This document shows positions 2,760-15,942 of a stretch of 21,399 nucleotides of DNA, in pieces. The notes under the pieces were generated by a model. That model saw only the letters and a list, made by a program, of their open reading frames with translations. It ran no database searches and was not told the DNA's origin. The stretch is from a virus. The translations under genes were made by a program, and so were the position numbers. Location of the stretch: positions 1 to 21,399 of IMG/VR virus record IMGVR_UViG_3300018059_000353; one strand, 5' to 3'. Each line of letters starts with the position of its first letter. The first letter of the stretch is position 1.

Positions 2760-2896
2760 GCCGCCCCGCCCGCAATCGCATCAGCGCCATTGCAAACTTT
2801 CTGGACCGCTGCGCGCTGCGACTTCGCAGAGTAGTCCGGGATAGTACGCCGCGCAGAAAGCGCGGGGCGAAGGCTGAAGCGGAGCGCATCGAATGA
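2750..2896 (+). CDS. Very basic small protein
   Basis: 48 residues with about one third Arg/Lys, no cysteine pattern beyond one Cys, and a helical middle (SAIANFLDRCALRLRRVV). It begins inside the end of the HNH gene (10-nt overlap) at an ATG preceded by GAGAACCGC, the same junction sequence that recurs at 9374, 9697 and 10456. The stop overlaps the next ATG. Possible DNA-binding peptide; not recognised. Confidence 0.55.
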   Translation: MLLSRPARNRISAIANFLDRCALRLRRVVRDSTPRRKRGAKAEAERIE

Positions 2897-3069
2897 ATTG
2901 GTTCTCTGCATTTCTGGAACTGCTGTTCATTGCCGTCTACGTAGCCACGACTGCCGCGCTCGACTGGCTGTTCAGCACAGACACTAAGCCGCTGACGCTG
3001 CTCTTCGGGTTGGTGTGCGTGAACGCGTTCCGCAACGGGCTTTTCAAGCCAAAGCGCAACATCCCATGA
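2893..3069 (+). CDS. Small two-helix membrane protein
   Basis: 58 residues with two hydrophobic segments (about 4-27 and 34-46) around a short polar loop and a basic end (FKPKRNIP). The ATG overlaps the preceding stop in ATGA. The stop TGA falls on the first bases of the first copy of the 60-bp direct repeat. Function unknown; small inner-membrane proteins of this kind in phage early operons include exclusion and lysis-timing factors, but nothing here decides. Confidence 0.65.
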   Translation: MNWFSAFLELLFIAVYVATTAALDWLFSTDTKPLTLLFGLVCVNAFRNGLFKPKRNIP

Positions 3070-3124
3070 CCCCTTCTTCCGCACTTCAAGGAGGACGTAT
3101 GAGCCCGCGTGAGAATCTGCTGGA
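3065..3124 (+). repeat. 60-bp perfect direct repeat, copy 1
   Basis: Identical to 4037-4096, 972 bp away. The unit carries the last bases of the preceding gene (stop TGA), a strong ribosome site (AAGGAGG 6-7 nt before ATG) and the first eight codons plus two bases of a gene starting MSPRENLL. Here the reading frame dies after 11 codons. Confidence 0.95.
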
Positions 3125-3134
3125 TCAGCGATGA
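3099..3134 (+). pseudogene. Truncated 11-codon copy of a neighbouring gene's start
   Basis: MSPRENLLDQR then TGA. The first eight codons are the same DNA as the start of the intact 65-residue gene at 4071. It retains the full Shine-Dalgarno, so it is probably translated and its stop (overlapping the next ATG as ATGA) would feed ribosomes into the TGT-like gene. It now behaves as a leader peptide, created when a cassette was placed between two copies of the repeat. Confidence 0.75.
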
Positions 3135-3871
3135 TCCGCTATCACGGCCTGCCAATGACGCCGATCGACACGATGATCAATGCATTGGTCAGTAAGAACG
3201 CCATGGTCAGCTACGCCAATCCTGAACAGATGGAAGTCGCGTGCCAGAAGTGCTCGTCGGTTGCGATCGATTGCGGAACGTATACCGCCTACGTGGCCGG
3301 CGAGAAGTACAACCCAGAGGGGTACCTTGAGTTTGTAACGCTCTGGCTACGTCATCCCTGCGTTGTGTGGGCCACCATTCCGGACATCATCGACGGGACC
3401 GAAGAAGAAAACGATGCTCTGATCGATGCTTGGCCACATGACAAGGCGCTTTCAGTTCCCGTCTATCACCTGCACGAGGATCTGTCGCGGCTGGAGCGGT
3501 TGATCAAGGAATACCCCCGCATCGGATTTGGCTCATCCGGAGTGTTCAGCGATCCGAACTCGCCACCATGGTGGAAACGGATGCGCGAAGTCATGAAGGT
3601 CGCCTGTGACTCCGAAGGCTACCCACTACGCAAGTACCACGGCTTCCGGATGCTCGATACCGGCATCTTCTCGCGTATCCCGCTCGCATCTGCCGACTCA
3701 ACGAACGTCGCGCGAAACATCGGTTTCGATACTCGATGGAGTGGCACCTATGTTCCCCGGTCAAAGACCGCGCGGGCTCTCGTGCTGATCAGCAACATTG
3801 ATCACCACATAGCAGCCGATCGCTGGAACTTCGACGAGGACGGCCTCCAGAACTTCGAGTTACTCGGATGA
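3131..3871 (+). CDS. TGT-fold (queuine/archaeosine transglycosylase superfamily) protein, DpdA-like candidate
   Basis: 246 residues. The pattern fits a compact transglycosylase TIM barrel: VAIDCGTYTAY (D47, position of the TGT DSGGF motif), WATIPDIIDG (D85), VPVYHLHEDLSRLERLI...YPRIGFGSSG (beta-alpha repeat with a Gly-rich strand end), and YHGFRMLDTGIFSRIPLASADST (D189, in the place of the nucleophile loop). It lacks the C-terminal CxCxxC...H zinc site of tRNA-TGT and is much shorter than bacterial Tgt, so a tRNA enzyme is unlikely. Phage relatives (DpdA) exchange guanine for 7-deazaguanines in DNA; no FolE/QueD/QueE/QueC genes are in the window, so a precursor would have to come from the host or elsewhere in the phage. 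Function is inferred from motifs only. The gene sits in a repeat-bounded cassette and is translationally coupled to an 11-codon leader. Confidence 0.55.
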   Translation: MIRYHGLPMTPIDTMINALVSKNAMVSYANPEQMEVACQKCSSVAIDCGTYTAYVAGEKYNPEGYLEFVTLWLRHPCVVWATIPDIIDGTEEENDALIDAWPHDKALSVPVYHLHEDLSRLERLIKEYPRIGFGSSGVFSDPNSPPWWKRMREVMKVACDSEGYPLRKYHGFRMLDTGIFSRIPLASADSTNVARNIGFDTRWSGTYVPRSKTARALVLISNIDHHIAADRWNFDEDGLQNFELLG

Positions 3872-4041
3872 CAGTTGTAACCGACGACCTGATCGAAGCG
3901 CACCGTCGCTTCGCAATGCTGGAAGCTCTCGCGAATCACCTACGGTACTGCAAGGTATGTGCGCAGAACGATGTCGAAAACTGCGAACTGGGAAAGCAAC
4001 TGTGGCTAGCTTCTGGCCACGAACTGGTTCCGTTCACATGA
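3868..4041 (+). CDS. Small Cys-containing protein travelling with the TGT-like gene
   Basis: 57 residues: an N-terminal helix (about 7-26), then HLRYCKVCAQNDVENCELG with C28, C31, C39 and possibly H46/H51 as metal ligands. The ATG overlaps the stop of the TGT-like gene (ATGA), and its stop is the TGA in the second repeat copy, so both genes lie exactly between the repeats and probably moved together. Function not recognised; it could be a partner of the TGT-like protein or just a passenger. Confidence 0.65.
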   Translation: MTVVTDDLIEAHRRFAMLEALANHLRYCKVCAQNDVENCELGKQLWLASGHELVPFT

Positions 4042-4096
4042 CCCCTTCTTCCGCACTTCAAGGAGGACGTATGAGCCCGCGTGAGAATCTGCTGGA
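4037..4096 (+). repeat. 60-bp perfect direct repeat, copy 2
   Basis: Identical to 3065-3124. Here the MSPRENLL frame stays open and gives a 65-residue protein, so this is the parental gene start and the upstream copy is the remnant. Homologous recombination between the copies would delete 972 bp. Confidence 0.95.
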
Positions 4097-4268
4097 CGCA
4101 TCCTGTCGCCTGACGATGCAGGCGCATCGGGCGAACGAGCACGGCGACCGCGAGGAAGGCATGCGCTGCGGCTGGATGGCGATGTACCTCGACGCGAGGG
4201 CTAGGGGACATTCCAAGCACAACGCCAGCATGCGGGCGAACGTGTACGAGCGGCGGGGGGATTTGTAG
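4071..4268 (+). CDS. Hypothetical phage protein, intact copy of the duplicated start
   Basis: 65 residues beginning MSPRENLLD, mostly helical and charged, with several Met and His but only two Cys; family not recognised. AAGGAGG lies at good spacing before the ATG. The last base of its TAG is the first base of the next GTG. Before the cassette arrived it presumably followed the small membrane gene ending at 3069. Confidence 0.7.
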   Translation: MSPRENLLDASCRLTMQAHRANEHGDREEGMRCGWMAMYLDARARGHSKHNASMRANVYERRGDL

Positions 4269-11076: not shown

Positions 11077-11775
11077 ATGATATGGGACAGGATCAAGGGA
11101 TCAATACGCGCGATGATTCGGGAGGAACTGAAGGCGCAGGAGTATCGCCAGGCACGCAGCATCGACTACGGCCTGCGCATGAACGCCATCATGGACTCCG
11201 CGCGCTTCGTAGAGCAGAACATCCCGCTTTCCAAGCGTTTCTCGTCAGAGGATCTGCGCAGGCAGGCGATCCAGACGGCACCGCCCGGGATGATGCTCGA
11301 GTTCGGGGTGTGGAAAGGCGACTGGATCACGCGGATGTCGCAGATGGCGCCGAGCTTGCACTGGTACGGCTTCGATTCGTTCGAGGGGTTGCCGGAGGCG
11401 TGGTCGATTCGGCAGGCGGGATTCTTCGCGCTCGATGCGCTACCGGCGGTGCCGGCGAACGTCACGCTCGTGAAGGGCTGGTTCAAGGACACGCTGCCGA
11501 AGTTTCTGGACGAGCATTCCGGGCCGCTTGGCTTCAGTCACATCGACGGGGACCTCTACTCATCGACGATCGAGGTATTGGATCTGCTGGCCGAACGGCT
11601 GCAGGTGGGAACGACGCTGGTGCTGGATGACTTTCTCGTCGAGCCAGGCTGGCAGCGCGAAGAGCATCGGGCGTGGTTTGAATTTCTCGGCAAGAACCCG
11701 CGAATCCGGTGGGAGTACCTCGGCTACCAGCCGGATCTCTTCGGGTCGGTTGGGGTTAGGATCACGGGGGTCTGA
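11077..11775 (+). CDS. TylF/MycF-type class I methyltransferase
   Basis: 232 residues. SAM-binding motif I is MMLEFGVWKGDW (E75, G77), followed by WYGFDSFEGLPEAW (D100), GFSHIDGDLYSSTIEVL (D157/D159, metal-binding site of the TylF family) and LVLDDF (D184, D185). The family methylates hydroxyls of sugars in macrolides and in O-antigen or capsule glycans, using Mg2+. In a phage it may alter cell-surface sugars, or a modified base or glycan. It has its own ribosome site (AAAGGGA) after the 61-bp AT-richer spacer, which with its solitary position suggests a separately acquired (moron-type) gene. Confidence 0.8.
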   Translation: MIWDRIKGSIRAMIREELKAQEYRQARSIDYGLRMNAIMDSARFVEQNIPLSKRFSSEDLRRQAIQTAPPGMMLEFGVWKGDWITRMSQMAPSLHWYGFDSFEGLPEAWSIRQAGFFALDALPAVPANVTLVKGWFKDTLPKFLDEHSGPLGFSHIDGDLYSSTIEVLDLLAERLQVGTTLVLDDFLVEPGWQREEHRAWFEFLGKNPRIRWEYLGYQPDLFGSVGVRITGV

Positions 11776-14805: not shown

Positions 14806-14997
14806 ATGCAGATATTCCGGATCTACCGTGTCCCGCCAGAGCGGCGGGCGAATGTGGATAAGGCCCTGCAAGAACTGCAGGCTGATCGAGACCGCAGGTG
14901 TACGACCTGCGAGACGACCTTTGCGGTGATCCTGCTGGTTCTCTTCGTGCTGTTATGGTTCGGCTTTGGGATACCGACGCCGATATCCCTCGCCTAG
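14806..14997 (+). CDS. Plus-strand moron-like membrane protein within the late region
   Basis: 63 residues: a charged N-terminal part (YRVPPERRANVDKALQELQADRDRRCTTCETTF) with CxxC, then one transmembrane helix (AVILLVLFVLLWFGFGI). It is the only plausible plus-strand gene among late genes and converges on the acyltransferase, overlapping its end by 45 bp. A possible promoter (TTACAG, 16 nt, TAACCT with a TG extension) would start transcription at or near the ATG, so the mRNA may be leaderless. Confidence 0.45.
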   Translation: MQIFRIYRVPPERRANVDKALQELQADRDRRCTTCETTFAVILLVLFVLLWFGFGIPTPISLA

Positions 14998-15942
14998 ACG
15001 AATCACGAGATTTCGCGCCGGACGCTCGTACCACCGCAGGGCAATCCACGCGATACCCATTGCCCCGACGACCGTGGCGACGATGCGTGACACTTGAGGC
15101 AGCCCTTCCGTCACCGACCATACAAACGGGTGGATGAGATAGAGCCCGTAGCTCACGTCGCCGAAGAAGCGACTGATACCCGCAAGCACCACGTTCTGTG
15201 TTGACCAGAAAAAGCCAGCGACAATCAGTACCGCGAGGCTTGTGTAGGCGACGCCCTGCCAACCCAAAAGCAAAGCGCGGTCGGGAGCACCGGGAAAGGC
15301 GAACAGTGCGATCGCGCAGGCAATCCCCAGCAGCGGCAGCCAGGTCCCGCGCGGCGCCAGCTTCGCAATCAGCATGCCGCCGAAGAAGAACACTAGAAAC
15401 GCGCCGGGCTGGGTGTAGACCGCGAAGCTCCCGAACAGGTCGGCCCCGACGACCTCACTGGCAAAGGCTAACCGCAGTGAGAAGAACGCAACGAACACGA
15501 GGATCGCCGCGCGCCCGGTGAGGCCCAGCAGCACCGGAAAGAGCGCATACAGCACGCACTCAATACCGAGGCTCCATCCTCCGGTAACCGATGAGGTCTG
15601 ACCCGGCGAGGCAAAGCCAAAGAGCATCGAGAGATTCAAGAACTCCCGTGCGCTATCCCAATCACGTCCAACAAGAGTCGGCGCGAGCGCACATGCAACA
15701 TAGAGGGGCGCAAGGCGTGCGAAGCGCCGCAGCAGGAACTGCGGGATTGAAAGGTCCTTCCCGAGCCGCCCGGCATATATGTGATAGAGCACCGCGCCGG
15801 AGATCGTGAAGAAGACGTAGACCCCGTAGAGTCCCCATTCACGGAAATGGGCAATCCCGCTCCACCATAGACAATGGTAGAGCGCCACCAGCAATGCGCA
15901 CAACCCCCGCAGCAGCTCGAGCCCGAGTAGTTTCTTCGGCAC
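14953..15942 (-). CDS. Acyltransferase-3 family membrane protein (probable O-antigen acetylase)
   Basis: 329 residues with about ten transmembrane helices. Family signatures: LELLRGLCALLVALYH (R12, H23), VYVFFTISGAVL, and FLLRRFARLAPLYV (RR..R..P-Y). OafA-type proteins move acetyl groups across the inner membrane to sugars of LPS; phage-carried members change serotype and block further adsorption. There is no C-terminal SGNH domain. GTG start after 15 bp from the tail-spike stop. Placement next to the spike, the receptor-binding enzyme, fits receptor modification by a lysogen. Confidence 0.85.
   Translation of the reverse strand: MPKKLLGLELLRGLCALLVALYHCLWWSGIAHFREWGLYGVYVFFTISGAVLYHIYAGRLGKDLSIPQFLLRRFARLAPLYVACALAPTLVGRDWDSAREFLNLSMLFGFASPGQTSSVTGGWSLGIECVLYALFPVLLGLTGRAAILVFVAFFSLRLAFASEVVGADLFGSFAVYTQPGAFLVFFFGGMLIAKLAPRGTWLPLLGIACAIALFAFPGAPDRALLLGWQGVAYTSLAVLIVAGFFWSTQNVVLAGISRFFGDVSYGLYLIHPFVWSVTEGLPQVSRIVATVVGAMGIAWIALRWYERPARNLVIRLGEGYRRRYPKAEP

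Follow-up and report, generated by a model that had tools for sequence, protein, structure and literature searches.

The dpdA locus

The window, that is the whole stretch of viral DNA that was analysed (21,399 nucleotides, IMG/VR record IMGVR_UViG_3300018059_000353), contains at positions 3131-3871 of the plus strand an intact ORF of 246 amino acids with an ATG start, named dpdA. Its product is a short DpdA, i.e. a protein resembling tRNA-guanine transglycosylases (TGT) and a putative DNA base-exchange enzyme; all the three motifs quoted in a preliminary description of this DNA are present in its sequence.

The gene is enclosed, together with a second ORF, by two 63-nt direct repeats, which are 98% identical, lie on the plus strand at 3062-3124 and 4034-4096 and have their starts 972 bp apart. 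The second ORF (3868-4041, plus strand) codes a Cys-containing protein of 57 aa, with only a sub-threshold Pfam match; it overlaps the dpdA stop by an ATGA and belongs to the same cassette. The repeat contains a ribosome-binding site together with the initial codons of a 65-aa ORF found downstream (4071-4268, plus strand; no PHROG match), the 5' end of which is thus duplicated as the left repeat. In the left copy these elements start a truncated leader ORF of 11 codons on the same strand (3099-3134, MSPRENLLDQR followed by a stop), whose stop overlaps the dpdA start in the ATGA at 3131-3134; this overlap makes a translational coupling of leader and dpdA possible. Judging from this arrangement, the dpdA cassette looks like a recent cargo insertion that captured a translation start. 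No empty site came to light when viral contigs were searched with part of the 63-nt repeat, and promoter and terminator scans gave no more matches than shuffled sequences. The possibility that a membrane ORF of 58 aa located upstream (2893-3069) codes for a transporter was dismissed, as it has no match to Vut_1 even at E 10.

The surroundings of dpdA consist of small ORFs on the same strand, a Ref-like nuclease being encoded upstream and an integrase downstream; lysis and tail genes of the window are on the opposite strand. With its integrase, Ref-like nuclease and opposite-strand lysis and tail genes, the virus can most likely be classed as a temperate tailed phage, and the location of dpdA in an early operon is plausible. 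The position of the gene in the window resembles that observed in BTP1, SfI and HK106. Beyond dpdA itself, no synteny was detected with the closest relatives, the loci L021 and L169, and no dpd-type neighbours were found among the window genes searched. Two other genes of the window were noticed: a TylF-like O-methyltransferase (11077-11775, plus strand), with an additional match to the C-terminal portion of a phage glycosyltransferase family, and a phage O-acetyltransferase of the O-antigen acetylase type (14953-15942, minus strand), which lies between lysis and tail genes and suggests a modification of the host surface.

Relationship to phage DpdA proteins

In PHROGs the window protein matches phrog_887 (E 2.4e-55), and the profile of this family also matches the DpdA proteins of Enterobacteria phage 9g (2e-98), Seurat (8e-96), Salmonella SW9 (8e-95), Salmonella phage 7-11 (7e-74) and Dp-1 (1e-66). 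A tblastn search revealed relatives in 145 phage records, with a best identity of 46% over 96% of the length; Acinetobacter phage AB3P2 shares 46% identity (E 5e-62), and tblastn from the window protein also gives direct matches to 7-11 (1e-17) and to the Seuratvirus DpdA group (3e-5). Comparison by hhalign of the short family with the 9g/Seurat/Dp-1 group gave a probability of 98.2 and an E-value of 5e-14, with both Asp motifs aligned: D47 is paired with the Asp of DSGAFS and D189 with that of DSS. A scan of viral contigs with the single sequence found no relatives, while an alignment-based scan of IMG/VR with one pattern retrieved at least 597; they include relatives matching the whole length of the protein at 50-54%, and most relatives, both in phage records and in IMG/VR contigs, are about 246 aa long. 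Thus, the phrog_887 match, the AB3P2 alignment and the full-length relatives indicate that the ORF is not a chance reading frame. A Pfam search with the protein found nothing, PF01702 being without match among those listed up to E 10, and an NCBIfam search was equally negative, NF041059 included.

The family is also found in cellular genomes: a GTDB scan retrieved 79 loci, mainly in Proteobacteria and a few in Acidobacteria, and an SfI-type short dpdA is present in 100 of 5426 complete E. coli genomes, where the copies, among those listed, are annotated as "hypothetical protein" (e.g. NZ_CP014497.1:823595-824347). In GenBank and PHROGs the family is labelled as queuine tRNA-ribosyltransferase. 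The individual gene is ordinary, and the family to which it belongs is large and poorly annotated. The phage gene is a somewhat divergent DpdA within a phage gene family that is widespread and already known, and does not represent a new kind of system; it is the relationship at the sequence level to verified phage DpdA proteins, and not the fold search, that carries this identification. The assignment to the TGT/DpdA type made in the preliminary description is therefore borne out by the phrog_887 profile shared with verified DpdAs, by hhalign and by the invariant residues. The shortness to which it drew attention is real, at 246 aa, but not peculiar, since this is the normal length for the family.

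Lone DpdA proteins have already been described in phages. Those encoding DpdA without synthesis genes (group 3) form the largest group, 76, in the survey by Hutinet (2019), who proposed that preQ0 comes from the host or by uptake; a gamma-proteobacterial cluster of singleton DpdAs was described, and YhhQ was found in some phages, uncorrelated with any group (PMC6884629). The 9g DpdA together with Gat-QueC is sufficient to mark E. coli DNA, and in Escherichia phage CAjan without dpdA the DNA mark is lost (PMC6884629). In Salmonella phage 7-11, with a lone DpdA, dADG amounts to 0.02% of G (PMC6884629), and in Pantoea phage MED16, which contains dpdA only and whose closest phage relatives are SW9 and SEN1, to 0.13% of G; MED16 DNA is still cleaved by most enzymes tested (PMC8306585). 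Since lone DpdA is already published as the largest class, and dADG was measured in two of its phages, the gene is of a known kind, and the novelty previously attributed to a DpdA without precursor genes does not stand. The trace levels in both tested lone-DpdA phages with the mark imply that bulk restriction protection is not established for this class.

Active site and predicted fold

In an alignment of 126 non-redundant sequences, six long DpdAs included, D47, H113, H170, P184, D189 and S190 never vary. D47 (codon at 3269-3271, plus strand) is the proposed acid/base and D189 (codon at 3695-3697, plus strand) the proposed nucleophile. A conserved His has been reported at position 196 of 9g-type DpdA (PMC6884629); both H113 and H170 are invariant, also in the long DpdAs, and either of them might be its equivalent. 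The zinc motif CxCxxC...H is absent: the chain ends 57 residues past D189, and the cysteines C38, C41 and C77 are not conserved in the alignment, in agreement with the lack of a zinc site noticed earlier.

A model was obtained with AlphaFold2 from the window protein and 58 relatives (pLDDT 91.2, pTM 0.87). It is a TIM barrel with helices between eight strands (residues 2-6, 23-27, 43-47, 78-82, 111-113, 130-134, 168-172 and 187-190), in which D47, D85, H113, G134 and D189 are located at or right after strand ends. In TIM barrels, strand ends of this kind form the active-site face. In the model, the invariant residues are thus placed at the C-terminal mouth of the (alpha/beta)8 barrel, and the two aspartates singled out from the sequence prove to be a conserved pair at the predicted barrel mouth, with D47 at the end of strand 3 and D189 at that of strand 8.

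When the model was compared with the PDB, the best E-values were those of tryptophan synthase alpha chains; the archaeosine TGT 1j2b ranks 14, with a joint-best TM-score of 0.52 among the matches listed, and, when the model of the sister protein L021 is used, ranks 47 with the best TM-score (0.55) among the matches listed. A search of BFVD viral models retrieved phage queuine tRNA-ribosyltransferases and the nt-1 DpdA2. HMMER against the sequences of solved structures gave chance matches only, and profiles of short or long DpdA showed no significant match to 24 bacterial TGTs; homology to TGT rests therefore on the published HHpred results for MED16 DpdA and nt-1 DpdA2 and on the fold. The PDB result for the predicted model is compatible with TGT, yet not specific, unrelated TIM barrels scoring roughly as high as the archaeosine TGT. 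The fold search earlier put forward as a check did find the archaeosine TGT, but among generic TIM barrels, and by itself is weak.

The window protein is divergent within its family. It deviates at 15 of the 69 columns that show at least 90% conservation, while the next complete sequence deviates at 6 and the median is 1. Several changes are near D47 (Q42S, F44V, N48C, A50T, F51Y and W54Y); the codons of C48-Y51 (3272-3283, plus strand) specify C-G-T-Y in place of the family consensus N-G-A-F. N48C is also present in the locus L084; the close relatives L021 and L169, in which some but not all of the changes recur, have retained N48 and A50. In a FastTree phylogeny the protein groups with L024, L021 and L169 (support 0.99), and its branch, of length 0.75, is the longest in its clade; the 7-11 and SW9 proteins form a sister branch to the 246-aa clade, with about 27-33% identity to the window protein. 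To our knowledge, no member of the 246-aa clade itself has been experimentally tested.

Precursor genes in the window, in relatives and in hosts

Profile searches found no QueC, QueD or YhhQ family members in the 21.4-kb record; FolE and QueE were searched with local models only, and the search of the window for preQ0 genes was negative overall, in line with the preliminary description, which saw no precursor genes there. Since the record is a fragment of a virus, absence from the window does not mean absence from the phage.

Six-frame ORFs of 178 external loci, which are the best matches and not a random sample, were surveyed for YhhQ, QueD, QueC, QueE and FolE on the same strand and within 300 bp of dpdA, using local models seeded from annotated genes. 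A neighbour belonging to the 7-deazaguanine pathway was found in 47 of them (YhhQ only in 24, QueD only in 17) and, among the non-redundant short members, in 32 of 119 (YhhQ only in 18, QueD only in 10). An independent Pfam search found PF02592, i.e. the QPTR (YhhQ) preQ0/preQ1 transporter family PF02592/COG1738 (PMC11130926), in 11 of 56 records, where it adjoins dpdA or, in Seurat, is in the same que cluster; PF01242 and PF06508 matches in environmental contigs also adjoin dpdA. The adjacency of short dpdA genes to YhhQ or to a preQ0-synthesis gene, mainly QueD, ties the short family to 7-deazaguanine, and the pairing with a preQ0/preQ1 transporter or with a single QueD supports the view that lone DpdAs depend on salvaged or host-made precursor. 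In the 17 QueD-only loci, QueD (PTPS) is directly beside the short dpdA and no other preQ0 genes were detected adjacent to it; they include L030, L033, L035, L050, L053, L074, L077, L080, L108 and L141. On the 5' side of dpdA, or near it, Pantoea phage AH07 (L003:3682-5004) and two mycobacteriophages (L207:202-861; L208:1-633) carry ParB-type genes, which recall bacterial DpdB.

Among the prophage-bearing genomes, full-length QueC is present in 26 of 28; both QueC-less genomes, Rhizobium subbaraonis and Devosia ginsengisoli (L172, L175), carry YhhQ beside dpdA. Although based on small numbers, this suggests a rule, namely that a phage should supply its own YhhQ where the host has no QueC. A host TGT was found in 24 of the 25 genomes searched.

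Proposed function and alternative explanations

Considering family membership, the conserved active-site pattern, the barrel fold and the association of the family, in genomes, with genes for preQ0 transport and synthesis, the gene probably codes a short lone phage DpdA that exchanges a host-fed 7-deazaguanine into DNA and is an accessory gene of a temperate phage. For this phage we infer the chemistry, the inserted base, the density of the mark and its benefit, and DNA as the target is proposed by analogy with the tested relatives. The chemistry established for the TGT family is the basis for the roles assigned to the two aspartates. By this analogy, D189 would attack C1' of the target deoxyguanosine, with the departure of guanine, and a 7-deazaguanine base, most likely preQ0 and possibly ending as dADG, would enter with D47 as acid/base. 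The precursor would be drawn from the queuosine pathway of the host, none being made by the phage as far as the fragment shows; use of a host precursor, one of the options listed at the outset, is the best reading. The gene would be a cargo gene (moron), and the probable effect of its low-density DNA mark is to modulate restriction or some other DNA-recognising function of the host.

The identification of the family in the preliminary description was right, while its novelty was not; the unusual features are local, namely the surroundings of D47 and the 63-nt repeats. That this copy has changed its specificity, towards another base or DNA site, or has lost activity and is decaying, is rather unlikely: the departures from conserved columns, several of them beside the catalytic Asp, and the longest branch of the clade would agree with such a history, but D47, G49, H113, H170, D189 and S190 are all preserved, the reading frame is open and has relatives matching its full length, the model is confident, and L021 and L169 share some of the changes only. 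A "different base" or a "new role", as previously suggested, is unsupported and left open solely by the divergence beside D47. It is unlikely, too, that the remodelled surroundings of this residue (C48, T50, Y51, Y54, Y112 and F172) confer a base or target preference unlike that of other short DpdAs or, alternatively, that the short family marks a few specific sites and not the genome in bulk; few-site marking by short DpdAs would explain the trace modification in 7-11 and MED16.

Queuosine-type modification of host tRNA, raised or altered during infection, is very improbable. The best-known members of the superfamily act on tRNA, the name of the family in PHROGs and GenBank derives from such an activity, and a tRNA target was offered by Hutinet (2019) for phages with pathway genes and without DpdA (PMC6884629); however, the window protein has neither the zinc site nor the C-terminal tRNA-binding part, in 9g, CAjan, 7-11 and MED16, the relatives that have been tested, it is the DNA that contains the base (PMC6884629, PMC8306585), and nearly all the host genomes searched already contain a TGT. 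Hardly credible is a generic TIM-barrel resemblance hiding a different chemistry, to which the best PDB E-values, for tryptophan synthase alpha chains and other barrels, and the lack of a Pfam match could point; sequence homology to verified DpdA, shared invariant residues and the repeated operon-like pairing with YhhQ, QueD and QueC all speak against it. DNA modification fed by the host thus remains the preferred reading.

Comparison with known systems

Among the closest systems are the short DpdAs of lambdoid temperate phages and prophages (BTP1, SfI, SPN3UB and Eeyore) and that of AB3P2, which are about 244-251 aa long, share 40-46% identity with the window protein and mostly start with MIH[YF]HG. 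In BTP1 and SfI dpdA is near xis/int, similarly to the window; in AB3P2, differently, YhhQ is directly downstream of dpdA. C48, T50 and Y51 of the window protein correspond to N, A and F in these proteins. The lone, group 3 DpdAs of 7-11 and MED16/SW9 share with it the PHROG, the invariant residues, a similar size (about 230-280 aa) and, as far as the fragment shows, the absence of preQ0 synthesis genes, but they are on the sister branch, and dADG was measured in 7-11 and MED16.

The DpdA of 9g belongs to the same PHROG and aligns at both Asp motifs. DNA modification is proven for 9g and CAjan (PMC6884629), Seurat DpdA having been searched as a stand-in for CAjan kin; however, DpdAs of the 9g/CAjan type are longer (about 306-317 aa) and only about 20-26% identical to the window protein, their synthesis genes share a cluster with dpdA, and about 27-32% of G is replaced. 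The DpdA of bacterial dpd islands (NF041059) belongs to the same superfamily and shares the same proposed chemistry, but it is a protein of about 400 aa that acts together with DpdB and DpdC of the same cluster; NF041059 does not match the window protein and gives sub-threshold matches only with three long phage DpdAs. Finally, TGT (PF01702) shares with the window protein the TIM barrel and, in the sequence, the motif D-x-G-x-[FY] as well as another conserved Asp, although no significant profile match links the two; TGT contains after the nucleophile the zinc site C-x-C-x2-C...H, which the short phage protein lacks.
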